Assembly: GCF_030867095.1 (NCBI RefSeq)
Contig: NC_081828.1
Coordinates: 3,549,001-3,613,000 of the forward strand
Direction of reading: 5' to 3'
Origin: Alligator mississippiensis
Lineage: Eukaryota; Chordata; Crocodylia; Alligatoridae
Length of the DNA: 64,000 nt
The first letter of the stretch is position 1. The number at the start of each line of letters is the position of its first letter. Below the pieces are notes generated by a model, which saw only the letters and a program-made list of their open reading frames with translations, made no database searches and was not told where the DNA came from. The position numbers and the translations under genes were made by a program. Below are positions 8,080-47,221 of this stretch, piece after piece.

Positions 8080-11000
8080 CATGAATGACGCGTGCCCCCA
8101 GCGGCTGGAGGGGTACGGTGGCAGTGGGAGTATGATGGTGGCAGGAGCGTGGTGGTGTGGTGGTGGCGGGAGTGGCAGGAGTGGAGCGTGGTGGTGGCGG
8201 GAGGAGCGCGGCAGCACGGCGGTGGCAGGAGTGGAGTGTGGTAGTAGCGGAGTGCAGTGGTGGTGGAAGTGCAGTGGTGGCAGGAGCACAGTGGCATGGT
8301 GGTGGCGGGAGTGGAGCATGGTGGCAGCGGGAGCGCGGTGCCAGTGGGAGCGGAGTGTGGCGGTGGCAGGAGTGAAGTGTGGTGGTGGCGGGAGTGCAGT
8401 GGAAGTGCAATGGTGGCGGGATCACAGTGGCACAGTGGTGGTGCAGTGGTGGTGGAAGTGCAGTGGTGGCAGGAGCACAGTGGCATGGTGGTGGCGGGAG
8501 TGGAGCATGGTGGCAGCGGGAGCGCGGTGCCAGTGGGAGCGGAGTGTGGCGGTGGCAGGAGTGAAGTGTGGTGGTGGCGGGAGTGCAGTGGAAGTGCAAT
8601 GGTGGCGGGATCACAGTGGCACAGTGGTGGTGGGAGTGGAGCATGGTGGCAGTGGGAGTGCAGCAGCAGTGGGAGTGGAGTGCAGTGGCGGCGGAAGAGC
8701 GGTGGTGGCGGGAGTGGATCGCAGTGGCAGCAGGAGTACGGCGGTGCGATGGTGGTGGGAGCGGAGTGTGGTGGCAGCAGGAGTGCGGTGGGAGTACAGC
8801 AGCATGGCGGTGGCGGGAGCGGAGCGTGGTGGTGGCGGGAGCGGAGTGTGGTGGTGGTGGGAGCACAATGGCATGGTGGTGGCGGGAGTGGAGCGTGGTG
8901 GTGGTGGGAGCACAGTGGCATGGTGGTGGTGGGAGTGGAGCGTGGCGGTGGCGGGAGCGGAGTGTGGTGGTGGTGGGAGCACAGTGGCATGGTGGTGGCG
9001 GGAGTGGAGCGTGGTGGTGGTGGGAGCACAGTGGCATGGTGGTGGTGGGAGTGGAGCGTGGCGGTGGCGGGAGCGGAGTGTGGTGGTGGTGGGAGCACAG
9101 TGGCATGGTGGTGGCGGGAGTGGAGCGTGGTGGTGGTGGGAGCACAGTGGCATGGTGGTGGCGGGAGTGGAGCGTGGTGGTGGTGGGAGCACAGTGGCAT
9201 GGTGGTGGCGGGAATGGAGCGTGGTGGTGGTGGGAGCACAGTGGCATGGTGGTGGTGGGAGTGGAGCGTGGCGGTGGCGGGAGCGGAGTGTGGTGGTGGT
9301 GGGAGCACAGTGGCATGGTGGTGGCGGGAGTGGAGCGTGGTGGTGGTGGGAGCACAGTGGCATGGTGGTGGCGGGAGTGGAGCGTGGTGGTGGTGGGAGC
9401 ACAGTGGCATGGTGGTGGCGGGAATGGAGCGTGGTGGTGGTGGGAGCACAGTGGCATGGTGGTGGCGGGAGTGGAGTGTGGCGGTGGCAGGAGCGGAGTG
9501 TGGTGGTGGTGGGAGCACAGTGGCATGGTGGTGGCGGGAGTGGAGCGTGGTGGTGGTGGGAGCACAGTGGCATGGTGGTGGTGGGAGTGGAGCGTGGCGG
9601 TGGCGGGAGCGGAGTGTGGTGGTGGTGGGAGCACAGTGGCATGGTGGTGGCGGGAGTGGAGCGTGGTGGTGGTGGGAGCACAGTGGCATGGTGGTGGCGG
9701 GAGTGGAGTGTGGTGGTGGTGGGAGCACAGTGGCATGGTGGTGGCGGGAATGGAGCGTGGTGGTGGTGGGAGCACAGTGGCATGGTGGTGGCGGGAGTGG
9801 AGCGTGGTGGTGGTGGGAGCACAGTGGCATGGTGGTGGCGGGAGTGGAGTGTGGTGGTGGTGGGAGCACAGTGGCATGGTGGTGGCGGGAGTGGAGTGTG
9901 GCGGTGGCAGGAGCGGAGTGTGGTGGTGGTGGGAGCACAGTGGCATGGTGGTGGCGGGAGTGGAGCGTGGTGGTGGTGGGAGCACAGTGGCATGGTGGTG
10001 GCTGGAGTGGAGCGTGGTGGTGGTGGGAGCACAGTGGCATGGTGGTGGCGGGAATGGAGCGTGGTGGTGGTGGGAGCACAGTGGCATGGTGGTGGCGGGA
10101 GTGGAGTGTGGCGGTGGCAGGAGCGGAGTGTGGTGGTGGTGGGAGCACAGTGGCATGGTGGTGGCGGGAGTGGAGCGTGGTGGTGGTGGGAGCACAGTGG
10201 CATGGTGGTGGTGGGAGTGGAGCGTGGCGGTGGCGGGAGCGGAGTGTGGTGGTGGTGGGAGCACAGTGGCATGGTGGTGGCGGGAGTGGAGCGTGGTGGT
10301 GGTGGGAGCACAGTGGCATGGTGGTGGCGGGAATGGAGCGTGGTGGTGGTGGGAGCACAGTGGCATGGTGGTGGCGGGAGTGGAGCGTGGTGGTGGTGGG
10401 AGCACAGTGGCATGGTGGTGGCGGGAGTGGAGTGTGGTGGTGGTGGGAGCACAGTGGCATGGTGGTGGCGGGAGTGGAGTGTGGTGGTGGTGGGAGCACA
10501 GTGGCATGGTGGTGGCGGGAGTGGAGCGTGGTGGTGGTGGGAGCACAGTGGCATGGTGGTGGCGGGAGTGGAGCGTGGTGGTGGTGGGAGCACAGTGGCA
10601 TGGTGGTGGCGGGAATGGAGCGTGGTGGTGGTGGGAGCACAGTGGCATGGTGGTGGCGGGAGTGGAGCGTGGTGGTGGTGGGAGCACAGTGGCATGGTGG
10701 TGGCGGGAGTGGAGTGTGGCGGTGGCAGGAGCGGAGTGTGGTGGTGGTGGGAGCACAGTGGCATGGTGGTGGCGGGAGTGGAGCGTGGTGGTGGTGGGAG
10801 CACAGTGGCATGGTGGTGGTGGGAGTGGAGCGTGGCGGTGGCGGGAGCGGAGTGTGGTGGTGGTGGGAGCACAGTGGCATGGTGGTGGCGGGAGTGGAGC
10901 GTGGTGGTGGTGGGAGCACAGTGGCATGGTGGTGGCGGGAGTGGAGTGTGGCGGTGGCAGGAGCGGAGTGTGGTGGTGGTGGGAGCACAGTGGCATGGTG

Positions 11001-12966
11001 GTGGCGGGAGTGGAGCGTGGTGGTGGTGGGAGCACAGTGGCATGGTGGTGGTGGGAGTGGAGCGTGGCGGTGGCGGGAGCGGAGTGTGGTGGTGGTGGGA
11101 GCACAGTGGCATGGTGGTGGCGGGAGTGGAGCGTGGTGGTGGTGGGAGCACAGTGGCATGGTGGTGGCGGGAATGGAGCGTGGTGGTGGTGGGAGCACAG
11201 TGGCATGGTGGTGGCGGGAGTGGAGCGTGGTGGTGGTGGGAGCACAGTGGCATGGTGGTGGCGGGAGTGGAGCGTGGTGGTGGTGGGAGCACAGTGGCAT
11301 GGTGGTGGTGGGAGTGGAGCGTGGCGGTGGCGGGAGCGGAGTGTGGTGGTGGTGGGAGCACAGTGGCATGGTGGTGGCGGGAGTGGAGCGTGGTGGTGGT
11401 GGGAGCACAGTGGCATGGTGGTGGCGGGAGTGGAGCGTGGTGGTGGTGGGAGCACAGTGGCATGGTGGTGGCGGGAGTGGAGCGTGGTGGTGGTGGGAGC
11501 ACAGTGGCATGGTGGTGGCGGGAGTGGAGTGTGGTGGTGGTGGGAGCACAGTGGCATGGTGGTGGCGGGAGTGGAGCGTGGTGGTGGTGGGAGCACAGTG
11601 GCATGGTGGTGGTGGGAGTGGAGCGTGGCGGTGGCGGGAGCGGAGTGTGGTGGTGGTGGGAGCACAGTGGCATGGTGGTGGTGGGAGTGGAGCGTGGCGG
11701 TGGCGGGAGCGGAGTGTGGTGGTGGTGGGAGCACAGTGGCATGGTGGTGGCGGGAGTGGAGCGTGGTGGTGGTGGGAGCACAGTGGCATGGTGGTGGCGG
11801 GAGTGGAGTGTGGTGGTGGTGGGAGCACAGTGGCATGGTGGTGGCGGGAGTGGAGCGTGGTGGTGGTGGGAGCACAGTGGCATGGTGGTGGTGGGAGTGG
11901 AGCGTGGCGGTGGCGGGAGCGGAGTGTGGTGGTGGTGGGAGCACAGTGGCATGGTGGTGGTGGGAGTGGAGCGTGGCGGTGGCGGGAGCGGAGTGTGGTG
12001 GTGGTGGGAGCACAGTGGCATGGTGGTGGCGGGAGTGGAGTGTGGTGGTGGTGGGAGCACAGTGGCATGGTGGTGGCGGGAGTGGAGCGTGGTGGTGGTG
12101 GGAGCACAGTGGCATGGTGGTGGCGGGAGTGGAGCGTGGTGGTGGTGGGAGCACAGTGGCATGGTGGTGGCGGGAGTGGAGTGTGGTGGTGGTGGGAGCA
12201 CAGTGGCATGGTGGTGGCGGGAGTGGAGCGTGGTGGTGGTGGGAGCACAGTGGCATGGTGGTGGCGGGAGTGGAGTGTGGTGGTGGTGGGAGCACAGTGG
12301 CATGGTGGTGGCGGGAGTGGAGTGTGGTGGTGGTGGGAGCACAGTGGCATGGTGGTGGTGGGAGTGGAGTGTGGTGGTGGTGGGAGCACAGTGGCATGGT
12401 GGTGGCGGGAGTGGAGTGTGGTGGTGGTGGGAGCACAGTGGCATGGTGGTGGCGGGAGTGGAGTGTGGTGGTGGTGGGAGCACAGTGGCATGGTGGTGGC
12501 GGGAGTGGAGCGTGGTGGTGGTGGGAGCACAGTGGCATGGTGGTGGCGGGAGTGGAGCGTGGTGGTGGTGGGAGCACAGTGGCATGGTGGTGGCGGGAGT
12601 GGAGTGTGGTGGTGGTGGGAGCACAGTGGCATGGTGGTGGCGGGAGTGGAGCGTGGTGGTGGTGGGAGCACAGTGGCATGGTGGTGGTGGGAGTGGAGCG
12701 TGGCGGTGGCGGGAGCGGAGTGTGGTGGTGGTGGGAGCACAGTGGCATGGTGGTGGCGGGAGTGGAGCATGGTGGCAGCAACAGTGGGAGCGGAGTGCGG
12801 TGGCGGTGGGAGCGGAGTGCGATGGTGGTGGGAGCGCGGTCGTGTTGAGAGTGGAGCGCAGCGGCGGCGGGAGCGGAGCATGGTGATGGTGCAAGTGAAG
12901 CGCGGTGGCAGTCATTGTGCAGCGACGGTAAGCACAGAGCTCCTGCCGACGCCGCCAGCACTGTGA
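8080..12966. repeat. 4.9-kb G/T-rich minisatellite, 47-bp core unit
   Basis: The regular part (about 8860-12765) is built from two blocks: a 22-bp block beginning GGGAGTGGAGC and a 25-bp block beginning GGGAGCACAGTGGCATGG. Together they make a 47-bp unit. A 69-bp variant has two extra 22-bp-type blocks in place of one. The flanks (8080-8860, 12765-12966) are degenerate. There are on the order of 75 units. The plus strand has almost no C outside fixed positions and is full of GGTGGTGG/GGTGGGAG tracts. The unit contains no stop triplet on either strand, and 47 is not a multiple of 3. All six frames therefore stay open for 1400-1630 codons, giving Gly/Trp/Val-rich peptides one way and His/Pro/Thr-rich peptides the other. 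I treat this as non-coding. Confidence 0.97.
8252..8629. repeat. 189-bp tandem duplication inside the minisatellite
   Basis: The block beginning GTGCAGTGGTGGTGGAAG at 8252 recurs at 8441 with essentially the same order of variant sub-units (GCGGTGCCAGTGGGAGCGG, GTGAAGTGTGG, GCGGGATCACAG). It is a recent higher-order duplication in the otherwise divergent left flank of the array. Confidence 0.85.
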
Positions 12967-13978: not shown

Positions 13979-34411
<20,433 letters not shown>

Positions 34412-45000: not shown

Positions 45001-46490
45001 AAAAAGGAGCCAACAGCTATAAAGTCAGTGCTTTAAAATGTGTAACAGCTCTATAGCTCCAGAATAGGGATGCTCAACCTGTTTTCGATATTAATTTTCT
45101 ACATTTTTTAGGGGCCCCATGGGTCAGATAGAATGGCCTGGCACGCCACCTCCGACCTGCCCCTGCCATGGACAGACCAGGCACCGGCCCACCAGGCAAG
45201 GAGTCTGAGCGCCACCGCTCGAGAGCAAACTAGATTCTCTAGCTTTAATCTGAACTCATAATCCTACACGTCCTACCACAGATTCAGATAATTGAAACTG
45301 GAGAGAAACCAGCTACAGGCTCGTTACACGTTTTCAAGCACCGGTCTGCTCTTTTCCTAGCCGGATGGTCATTTTTAGGCGGGTGCAATCATTACTTTTT
45401 GTACCCAAATCGATTGTGCAAGCATGACTTGGTCTACGGCCGATCACATGATCCATTCACATGTGGTGCGCTCGGGACTTCGCACACGTAGGGTTGCCGA
45501 CTCCGAATCAATCCTGGGAGGTTTCCACAACGCCAACGTGCCCATGACGCAAGACGAACGTGCAAGAGTATACCTGTTCTCGATTACGGCGCGTAGACGT
45601 GACATCAGGAAGGCCAATGCCCACGATTTGGACATTTTAAAAACCTGCTGTATGAATCAGATTCGACATGTCACGTTTCTTTTAACGAATACCCTCTCAT
45701 TTATCTCCCTGGTGACTCTCCTGGGGGTTTATACCTAATTCCTGGAGTGTCGGCAACCCTACGTGCAGCCGGTCTACATTTATTGCGTGGTGTAACACCT
45801 AATGGGGTGGGAGCTGAGACACAAACATCCTCCTGTTAGGTGGCGCCTGTTTAAGAAGCCACCCTCTGGCGGGCAAATGCCAGCACCTGTTACATATATC
45901 GTGCCACTCGGTGCCAAAATGGTGTGATCCCCGTGCAAAGCCACGGGTGCACGGGACTTGTGCGGGCAGCCACAAAAATGGCTGAGCAGCCATGAAAATG
46001 GGTAAAAAATGGCCGAGCAGCCACGAAAATGGGTAAAAAATGGCCGAGCAGCCACGAAAATGGCCGAGCAGCCACGAAAGAGGCCCGAACATGGCCGAGC
46101 AGCCACGAAAATGGCCCGAACATGGCCGAGCAGCCACGAAAATGGCCCGAACATGGCCGAGCAGCCACGAAAATGGCTGAGCAGCCACGAAGGCTCCGTG
46201 ATGTGCTGACCTTTGCTTGCGGCGGCGTCCTCAGCGCGCTCCAGGTAGTAGATGTTGAGCAGGGGCAGGAGGCCGTGCAGGATGTGGGCGGGCAGCGCTG
46301 GGGGGAGAAACAGGCGTGAGGCGCGGTCGGGACAAGGGGGCTAATCTGGAGCGGGGAGGCCCCATGTAAACGCGTCCCCCGGGGACCCCCCCTTACCCCA
46401 GACCTCGCTCTCCAGGGCCCCCATGCTGGAGCTCACCGCCGCCCCGCTCAGCGCGAAGAGGCTGGGGGGGCCGCCCCCCGGCTCCTCCAT
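36056..46490 (-). CDS. LRRC41: Leucine-rich repeat protein 41 / MUF1 (10 exons, 801 aa)
   Basis: Predicted substrate receptor of Elongin BC-Cullin ubiquitin ligases. Exons in transcript order: 46490-46397, 46297-46211, 44227-44157, 43868-42656, 41736-41494, 39999-39835, 39363-39265, 38780-38658, 37590-37515, 36290-36056, with matching phase throughout and 801 residues (human 812). The start is firm: the context is GCCGCCATGG and an in-frame TAG lies eight codons upstream (46514-46512). Residues 11-19 (LFALSGAAV) align with the BC box, followed by [11 protein letters not shown]. Exon 4 encodes a large N-terminal region, a low-complexity basic stretch (359-377, [14 protein letters not shown]) and the first LRRs. 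LRRs continue to [16 protein letters not shown], and the C-terminus is [11 protein letters not shown]-like ([15 protein letters not shown]). The BC-box Cys is Ser here (Ser15). Confidence 0.96.
41135..41330 (+). mobile_element. CR1 3' end, LRRC41 intron 5
   Basis: AAAAGGAGACTGGATACACG, GGGCTGGACCTGACGATCTC, ATGAGGTCCCTTCCAGCCCC and GTGATTCTATGACTG form the CR1 3' terminus with its octamer tail. Confidence 0.8.
44240..45480. other. LRRC41 intron 2, distal part
   Basis: No exon was recognised. There is a 12-bp A tract near 44529, and the sequence is AT-rich to about 45060. Bases 45065-45220 have a GC-rich, repeat-like look (GGGGCCCCATGGGTCAG) that I could not classify. Confidence 0.4.
45485..45768. 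mobile_element. Short DNA transposon (MITE-like) with inverted ends
   Basis: The left end GTAGGGTTGCCGACTCCG and right end GGAGTGTCGGCAACCCTAC are inverted copies of each other. The outer bases CACGTA/TACGTG suggest either longer arms or a TA target duplication. Length is about 275 bp with no transposase. A relative of its inner right half (GACATTTTAAAAACCTGCTG ... TAATTCCTGGAGT) occurs at 51850-52075. The 104-codon open frame inside it is incidental. Confidence 0.7.
45965..46192. repeat. 31/20-bp minisatellite with ATGGC cores
   Basis: Units end in GCCGAGCAGCCACG and begin AAAATGG. The main unit is 31 bp (AAAATGGCCCGAACATGG + GCCGAGCAGCCACG-type or AAAATGGGTAAAAAATGG + same) and a short unit is 20 bp. 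Seven AAAATGGC cores can be counted. The array ends 19 bp before the splice donor side of LRRC41 exon 2 (exon lower edge 46211). Confidence 0.9.
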
Positions 46491-47221
46491 GGCGGCGCCT
46501 CGGAGATGGGACTAGGCCGGGCGGAGAGGAACCAGCAGCACCGCCATCTTGGACAGGGGTAGGAAGTGACGTAATAGCCGCCATCTTGGGAGGGTTGGGG
46601 CAGCCTATAAGCGGCCGGTTTGGGGAGCCGCCATTTTGGGAGAGGCGGGGCAGCTTATGAGTGGCCGTTTGGTGGGGGTGCCATCTTGGGAGGGTTGATG
46701 GCAGCTTATGCGCGAGCGTCTGGGGCAGACGCCATCTTGGGAGGGTCAAAGTGCGGCCTAGAGCAACCGCCATCTTGGGCAGGTCAGGGGTGCAGTTTAT
46801 AGGCGCTACCAGGTTAGGGAGCAGTTTAAGGGAGTCATTGTTTTTGGGCAGGTCTCGGGCTCGGTTTAGGAGAGGCATCCTCTTGTGGAGGTCAGAAGCC
46901 GTTTTAGGCAAGTCAGGAATACAGCTTTTACGAAGCCGCCATCTTGGACAGCTGAGGGGCGCGGCCAATGCGAACCGCCATTTTGAGAAGGTCAGAGAAC
47001 ACCTATATGGGCGCCATCTTGAGAAGGTTCGAAGCGCCGCTTATTACTGGCCGCCATCTTGGGCAGGTCAAGAGTCCGGCCTCTGCGAGCCGCTATCTTG
47101 GTCGCGTCATAAAAAGGCGCCATCTTGACCCCGCCTTAGCGTGGCTGGGTTTCCGCTTCCGGGTGGAGGGGAGAGTGGCTTCTTCCGGCGGCTGACCCTG
47201 CCGAGTCCTTCTGGGGTGGAC
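46491..47221. promoter_or_regulatory. LRRC41/UQCRH bidirectional promoter with YY1-site tandem array
   Basis: 731 bp separate the two start codons. Eleven exact GCCAT(C/T)TTG cores begin at 46543, 46580, 46630, 46680, 46731, 46769, 46938, 46977, 47013, 47053 and 47119. A near match GCTATCTTGG is at 47092, and two decayed units lie near 46834 and 46874. All point the same way. The intervening sequence also repeats: (A/G)GGTC..GGGGCGCAGCTTATAAG-like, with TATA-like or TTTAG variants. Thus the promoter is a degenerate tandem repeat of about 40-55 bp per unit. CCGCCATNTTG is the YY1 binding motif. Also visible are an ETS/CRE composite GGAAGTGACGTAAT (46562-46575), a CCAAT box (about 46965) and TTCCGG ETS/GABP sites near 47155 and 47184. 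Confidence 0.85.

Follow-up and report, generated by a model that had tools for sequence, protein, structure and literature searches.

A tandem array of YY1/TISU-type cores between LRRC41 and UQCRH of Alligator mississippiensis, with further arrays of this kind elsewhere in the genome

The stretch of DNA analysed here (64 kb of the Alligator mississippiensis genome, hereafter the window) contains two genes standing head to head, LRRC41 on the minus strand and UQCRH on the plus strand, with a spacer of 732 bp between their start codons. UQCRH was identified by its match to complex III subunit 6 and by the family PF02320. A Pfam search of the LRRC41 exon returned no family, and its identity was therefore taken from the comparison with turtle LRRC41 (69% identity, 99% of the exon covered); against Alligator LRRC41, 138 of 147 positions were identical, with about a third of the exon aligned. 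Among the neighbours, an SNF2-domain exon (21373-21645) presumably belongs to RAD54L, and we read the right-hand gene as NSUN4, a short piece of which had no Pfam match. Two candidate core promoters lie in the spacer (Table 1): AGGAAGTGACGT, which we take to be an ETS-like plus a CRE-like motif, would serve LRRC41, and three hexamers, which we likewise assume to be ETS-like, would serve UQCRH. Judged by the head-to-head layout and these motifs, the spacer would be a bidirectional promoter. A bacterial promoter and terminator scan, which is not suited to this genome, gave nothing useful.

Most of this spacer is occupied by a tandem array. Searching both strands of the window for GCCATYTTG yielded 11 matches, all of them on the plus strand at 46543-47127 (585 bp), compared with a mean of 2.0 and a maximum of 5 in 100 dinucleotide shuffles of the whole 64 kb. 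The array is real and non-random, and with several full consensus sites per few hundred base pairs, beyond chance, it is by sequence a homotypic YY1-site cluster. A first-pass annotation of this DNA had described 11 exact GCCAT(C/T)TTG cores in a single orientation between the divergent start codons (46490, minus strand; 47222, plus strand), and this is what we found. Its proposal that the promoter had grown as a tandem repeat was likewise borne out by 15 tandem units and by an ungapped repeat search that registered a 33-nt reference unit 10 times, the other nine copies being 61-79% identical to the reference. The estimate of about 14 units came close: 15 are in register, three of them (U7, U8, U9) decayed, and a possible core-less remnant, judged by eye at ~46806-46835, may be held in U6. 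Tandem Repeats Finder, suggested as a check, did detect a repeat, but only a 50-bp part of the array at 46579-46746 (3.3 copies, 76% matches). Unit lengths are mostly 36-40 bp, with 50-51 bp in U2-U4 and irregular lengths in U6, U8, U14 and U15; apart from U6 with its 69 bp, these are the head-to-tail units of 10-60 bp that characterize minisatellites. Although 11 cores are intact, all 11 linkers behind them are distinct.

Table 1. Features of the LRRC41-UQCRH spacer (window coordinates) and arrays at other identified genes; for the latter, the third column gives the orientation of the CAARATGGC strand relative to the gene
Feature	Position	Strand or orientation	Basis
LRRC41 start codon	46488-46490	-	N-terminus resembles Crocodylus porosus LRRC41 (16 residues compared)
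Whole array, 15 units U1-U15 (21-69 bp), consensus about CCGCCATCTTGGGCAGGTCAGGGGTGCAGCTTATAAGCG	46541-47144	+	own cutting
Core U1, LRRC41-proximal	46543-46551	+	exact match
AGGAAGTGACGT between U1 and U2, putative LRRC41 core promoter	46561-46572	+	
Core U2, minus strand = CAAGATGGCGGC	46580-46588	+	exact match
Core U3 (GCCATTTTG)	46630-46638	+	exact match
Core U4, sole exact core without preceding CpG (TGCCAT)	46680-46688	+	exact match
Core U5	46731-46739	+	exact match
Core U6	46769-46777	+	exact match
Decayed U7 (46836), U8 (46875), U9 (46896)	46836-46935	+	unit alignment
Core U9 GCCGTTTTA, two mismatches	46898-46906	+	mismatch search
Core U10, minus strand = CAAGATGGCGGC	46938-46946	+	exact match
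Core U11 (GCCATTTTG)	46977-46985	+	exact match
Core U12	47013-47021	+	exact match
Core U13, minus strand = CAAGATGGCGGC	47053-47061	+	exact match
Core U14 GCTATCTTG, one mismatch	47092-47100	+	mismatch search
Core U15, UQCRH-proximal	47119-47127	+	exact match
Three hexamers (47150, 47156, 47182), putative UQCRH core promoter	47150-47187	-	
UQCRH start codon	47222-47224	+	reading frame, complex III subunit 6 match
GFER array, 9 cores mostly 51-52 bp apart, CpG o/e 0.56	L060:2250-2770	sense	PF04777
ELOB array, 3 cores		sense	protein match
PSMD7 array, 5 cores		sense	protein match
PTH2-domain gene, read as PTRHD1, 4 cores		sense	PF01981
LEM-domain gene, read as LEMD2, 5 cores		sense	PF03020
Galactosyltransferase gene, read as B3GALT6, 3 cores		sense	PF01762
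PLOD3 array, 4 cores		antisense	protein match + Pfam

Two other readings of the array were discarded. Helical phasing of the sites at 10.5 bp gave a vector length of 0.10; the best of all periods scanned (12.8 bp, 0.77) was taken as a chance result among the many tried. The long open frames at 46396-47040 (minus strand) and 46661-47125 (plus strand) look like by-products of few stop codons rather than a gene inside the array.

The single orientation of the cores is expected from tandem duplication alone. The divergence of cores and linkers was compared over 21 ungapped columns of all 15 units, decayed units included, setting eight core columns against the ten linker columns that follow. Mean pairwise identity was 0.84 in the former and 0.51 in the latter. 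On a tree built from linkers only, 10 changes fell on the core columns, where the linker rate predicts 27.2 (P 1.4e-4); they thus changed about one-third as often as the linker columns next to them. Of the 15 cores, 11 were intact versus 0.7 expected. These figures are biased towards core conservation, since the cores served as anchors for the alignment. Corrected for choosing the best of 13 windows, P was 5e-6 by resampling of linker columns and 0.0015 in the Poisson version, the latter being only moderately strong. A linker-only matrix trained on intact units found 9 places in the array, of which 7 immediately follow an intact core; of its 63 other places on the plus strand of the window, none follows a core. 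The differential divergence is thus directly seen, and selection would be the agent that keeps the cores. The decay of three middle units shows that some copies are dispensable.

A neutral minisatellite that happened to grow out of a promoter containing a single YY1 site, its core conservation only apparent as the units were found by their cores, is an unlikely origin of this pattern, though several observations agree with it. The spacing of the tandem units is variable and middle units have decayed; moreover, about 350 bp away, in intron 2 of LRRC41 by our own exon reading, lies a 31-bp minisatellite (45966-46191) with 96% matching units. Its 10 GCCATNTT sites are all minus-strand sites, i.e., in the orientation opposite to the main array, and their flanks differ from those of the array, which makes YY1 binding there doubtful. 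This wider core occurs 23 times in the window: 11 times in the array, 10 times on the minus strand of this minisatellite (45975-46177) and twice elsewhere. A common origin of array and minisatellite was considered and is not supported, the longest shared match being 8 bp. As to a unit dispersed over many sites in the manner of an L1 Tf monomer, the window gave a single 17-nt match outside the array (E 0.47). Another minisatellite, 4 kb in length, occupies 8787-12835, with a 47-bp unit (84.6 copies according to Tandem Repeats Finder) that keeps several reading frames open over very long distances. Against neutrality stand the rate of core changes, which is about one-third that of the adjacent linker with the decayed units included, also when window choice is allowed for, and the retention of the CpG in 10 of the 11 exact cores. 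The CpG observed/expected ratio (o/e) is 0.75 for the spacer and 0.73 for the core cluster versus 0.44 for the window.

Further evidence came from a search of the whole genome (2.35 Gb, 195 contigs; repeat counts are lower bounds). GCCGCCATCTTGG occurred at least 284 times, versus once for the reversed control. Triples of same-strand cores spaced by 24-54 bp were found at least 60 times and never with the reversed control; the pattern itself required one strand, and an alternating arrangement of the same triple had no match genome-wide. Grouped by eye, the 60 matches fall into 34 places with three or more same-strand cores at this spacing, the window included. The idea of a singular oddity is thus not supported: the array belongs to a class with other members in the same genome. 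We examined 35 regions, namely the window, the other 33 places (as 32 stretches) and two clusters from the GCCGCCATCTTGG search. CpG o/e is at least 0.6 in 15 of the 35, and among these the window has the most cores (11). By core number alone it ranks sixth, behind five CpG-poor arrays with 19, 15, 15, 13 and 12 cores (CpG o/e 0.10-0.41). The core is common to the other arrays while most of the linker is specific to each locus, which again argues against neutral origin; the existence of several CpG-poor GCCATCTTG arrays speaks for it. Such arrays, with up to 19 cores and often GCA before the core, are L046, L047, L048, L050, L051 and L057, of which L047, L048, L050 and L051 are grouped in 0.37 Mb close to the beginning of contig C7. 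Two of the five CpG-poor arrays that exceed the window in core number, L046 and L066, were inspected in full and look like ordinary minisatellites.

Coding exons were sought in 14 fetched loci, and reading frames were followed from each core in 19 fetched loci plus the window. Seven loci could be assigned to genes (Table 1), and in six of them the CAARATGGC strand is the sense strand, PLOD3 being the exception. At GFER the last core is the apparent start codon of a frame MAAPSESRS..KKPCRACTDFKSWIREQ, which we take to be GFER-like; a family search with the 74 residues from this start found none. The last core also provides the apparent start codon of the PTRHD1-like gene, whose protein had no match in the PDB. 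In the LEM-domain gene the frame is open from the last core, with a second ATG just ahead of the domain. We read L062 as CAPZA and L071 as HACD2, both presumptive names; a family search found nothing for either, nor did a further search for L062. Pfam returned nothing for four further array-locus frames, and the remaining loci gave no identification.

An additional regularity concerns the sequence GGTCA, which may be a nuclear-receptor half-site. It stands exactly four bases after the core at 46781, 46889, 46989 and 47065 of the window and also in L055, L056, L061 and others. In the fetched loci, 7 of 95 CGCCAT cores have GGTCA at this offset, where the other offsets average 0.07, and none of 160 other cores has it; GGGCA was found 12 times at another offset versus 3 times at four. 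Of 8 genome-wide occurrences of GCCATCTTGGGNNGGTCA, 3 lie in the window. GGTCA at four bases after the core recurs in several independent arrays and may mark a composite site.

Read in the sense of LRRC41, all 11 intact cores are CAARATGGC, the core shared by YY1 sites and the translation-start element TISU, and thus contain the TISU core AAGATGGC with its ATG in gene sense. For the full element we scored against SAASATGGCGGC, which we take to be the consensus; it is exact in three units (U2, U10 and U13 = CAAGATGGCGGC). None of the array ATGs opens the LRRC41 frame, as those in frame run into a stop before 46490. A TISU whose ATG starts the main frame is therefore absent from the LRRC41 array, and apparently present, by sequence, at GFER and the PTRHD1-like gene. 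TISU is reported for ~4% of human genes, at +5 to +30; it binds YY1 and has one orientation, and in 64% of TISU genes the start codon lies within it (PMC2518114). The cores described here resemble it in the motif with its ATG, the single orientation, the YY1-type sequence and the link to mitochondrial and other basic cellular genes, which are enriched in the reported TISU set (PMC2518114). They differ in that one element at +5 to +30 is described for TISU (PMC2518114), whereas 11 intact tandem copies are present here and none is the LRRC41 start codon.

That these upstream start codons form a translational device, restraining or diversifying the LRRC41 protein, seems very improbable to us. On the LRRC41 strand all 11 ATGs do have CAARATGGC around them, the frames opened in U2 and U6 pass over the LRRC41 start without matching its frame, and some birds have in-frame ATGs that gene models use. 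Yet no core ATG gives an in-frame LRRC41 extension, UQCRH would not be affected, and such a device requires transcription from within the array. Because the core ATGs are in strong context and two of them overlap the start out of frame, LRRC41 transcription is instead predicted to begin downstream of U2.

Bird LRRC41 proteins appear to preserve traces of similar DNA. Our collection comprised 222 proteins including the window's own exon, and one LRRC41 search contributed 120 of 138 matches; the LRRC41 set consisted of the 122 proteins in which the exon-1 anchor was present, and their N-terminal parts were of 91 different kinds. Signatures were the residues encoded by CAAGATGGCGG or a near variant in three frames (Q[DN]GG, KM[AT]., [PA]RWR). 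Among the matches listed, and with codons deduced from the residues, 17 of the 91 N-terminal parts, from 17 bird species, carried them. Their density was 33 in 1955 aa of N-terminal parts versus 0 in 65813 aa of the remaining parts of these listed matches; 2000 shuffles of the N-terminal parts had a mean of 0.2 and a maximum of 3, and signatures of the opposite strand numbered 0. In the cuckoo Cuculus canorus (P0197, residues 1-71) there are five, three of them in a VPPKM pattern, and this predicted N-terminus looks as if a tandem start-codon array had been translated from end to end. In databases, the annotated N-termini of some bird LRRC41 proteins may accordingly be promoter repeats. Also among the matches listed, 74 of the 91 N-terminal parts lacked signatures, including those of Crocodylus porosus, a turtle, palaeognaths, lizards and mammals, which says little since many gene models may start downstream of such DNA.

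Several known systems share features with the array. At the imprinted Peg3/Usp29 locus, a same-oriented YY1 cluster is reported to act as an activator in reporter assays, depending on orientation and site number (PMC2615030). Mutation of seven of these sites on the mouse paternal allele lowered Peg3 and Usp29 by 10-51% with a sex bias, and survival was not affected to any major degree (PMC5526879). YY1 knockdown and half dosage point to repression at Peg3 (PMC2615030, PMC4361396), and YY1 sites over translation starts are said to tend towards repression (PMC3491394). In mouse L1 Tf, synergy between tandem promoter monomers is attributed to YY1 motifs, with CpG methylation lowering binding (PMC11602158). 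Ordinary promoters are described as having far fewer sites than imprinting control regions (ICRs; PMC5526879): of 98 tested YY1 promoters, 88 had one site, 6 two and 4 three at the threshold of that study (PMC3491394), and in mouse Parp1 seven positions carry short YY1 core motifs (PMC3429435).

With the CSE2 region of Peg3/Usp29 the alligator array shares many one-orientation YY1-type sites in a CpG-rich region of divergent genes (PMC2615030, PMC5526879), i.e., the sequence features of an ICR-type YY1 cluster. CSE2 differs in being imprinted and, in the published accounts, in having copies without fixed spacing over a 2.5-kb first intron, whereas tandem units of mostly 36-51 bp fill the spacer of a housekeeping pair here. 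Like the mouse LINE-1 Tf promoter, the array consists of tandem units each with a YY1 site (GTCGCCATCTTG in L1), synergy being a feature reported for L1 (PMC11602158); unlike that promoter of a retrotransposon family, it has short units at one locus. It shares several YY1 sites with homotypic ordinary promoters, which the cited descriptions do not present as tandem repeats (PMC3491394, PMC3429435). Among the best matches in the open-access literature (titles and abstract openings, with most subscription papers outside), we found no YY1 array at LRRC41-UQCRH and no tandem YY1/TISU arrays in reptiles or birds; none of the papers found there joined LRRC41, UQCRH and bidirectional.

Same-oriented clusters of 4-10 CTCF or YY1 sites at ICRs (PMC5526879), one of them adjoining the Peg3/Usp29 bidirectional promoter (PMC2615030), would also fit the array as the signature of a YY1 looping anchor, an insulator or an imprinting-type control region. 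We consider this improbable, as the arrays found here stand at ordinary housekeeping genes; clusters of this form are probably not confined to imprinted genes. Moreover, crocodilians are not known to imprint. Looping and dosage switching, both raised in the first-pass annotation, are speculative, and so is insulation.

The explanation we favour, and consider fairly probable, is repeated duplication of a YY1/TISU promoter element that has been kept as a multi-site YY1 platform. The ancestral element would have been a YY1 site and TISU-type translation-start element at once (CAAGATGGCGGC in LRRC41 sense), which tandem duplication within the head-to-head spacer presumably multiplied to about 15 units; the linkers would then have diverged while selection retained the cores. 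Several YY1 molecules on the same-oriented sites may form a homotypic platform, jointly activate the putative core promoters at both ends (46561-46572 and 47150-47187) and protect the CpG-rich spacer from closure and methylation, with LRRC41 transcripts predicted to start downstream of U2 at ~46500-46575. A multi-site activator is the likeliest function given the Peg3/Usp29 and L1 Tf precedents; YY1 also represses, with signs of this at Peg3 itself, which leaves the sign of the effect uncertain.

More tentatively, and with somewhat less than even confidence, we propose an archosaur class of tandem start-codon arrays, in which the YY1/TISU element of housekeeping genes has repeatedly been copied to positions upstream of itself, giving 3-15 copies in one orientation, with LRRC41 as a hotspot in crocodilians and birds. 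The arrays suggest a route from a start-codon element to a promoter array; at GFER and the PTRHD1-like gene, the repeated unit is the apparent start-codon element. If this is true, arrays at housekeeping genes would be multi-site YY1 promoters and at the same time a supply of alternative start codons, and same-oriented YY1 clusters, hitherto treated as a hallmark of imprinting regions, would represent a general type of promoter that does not depend on imprinting. Arrays of 3-11 sites at ordinary housekeeping genes would decouple the form of the array from imprinting and offer a natural copy-number series for relating the number of YY1 sites to promoter output.
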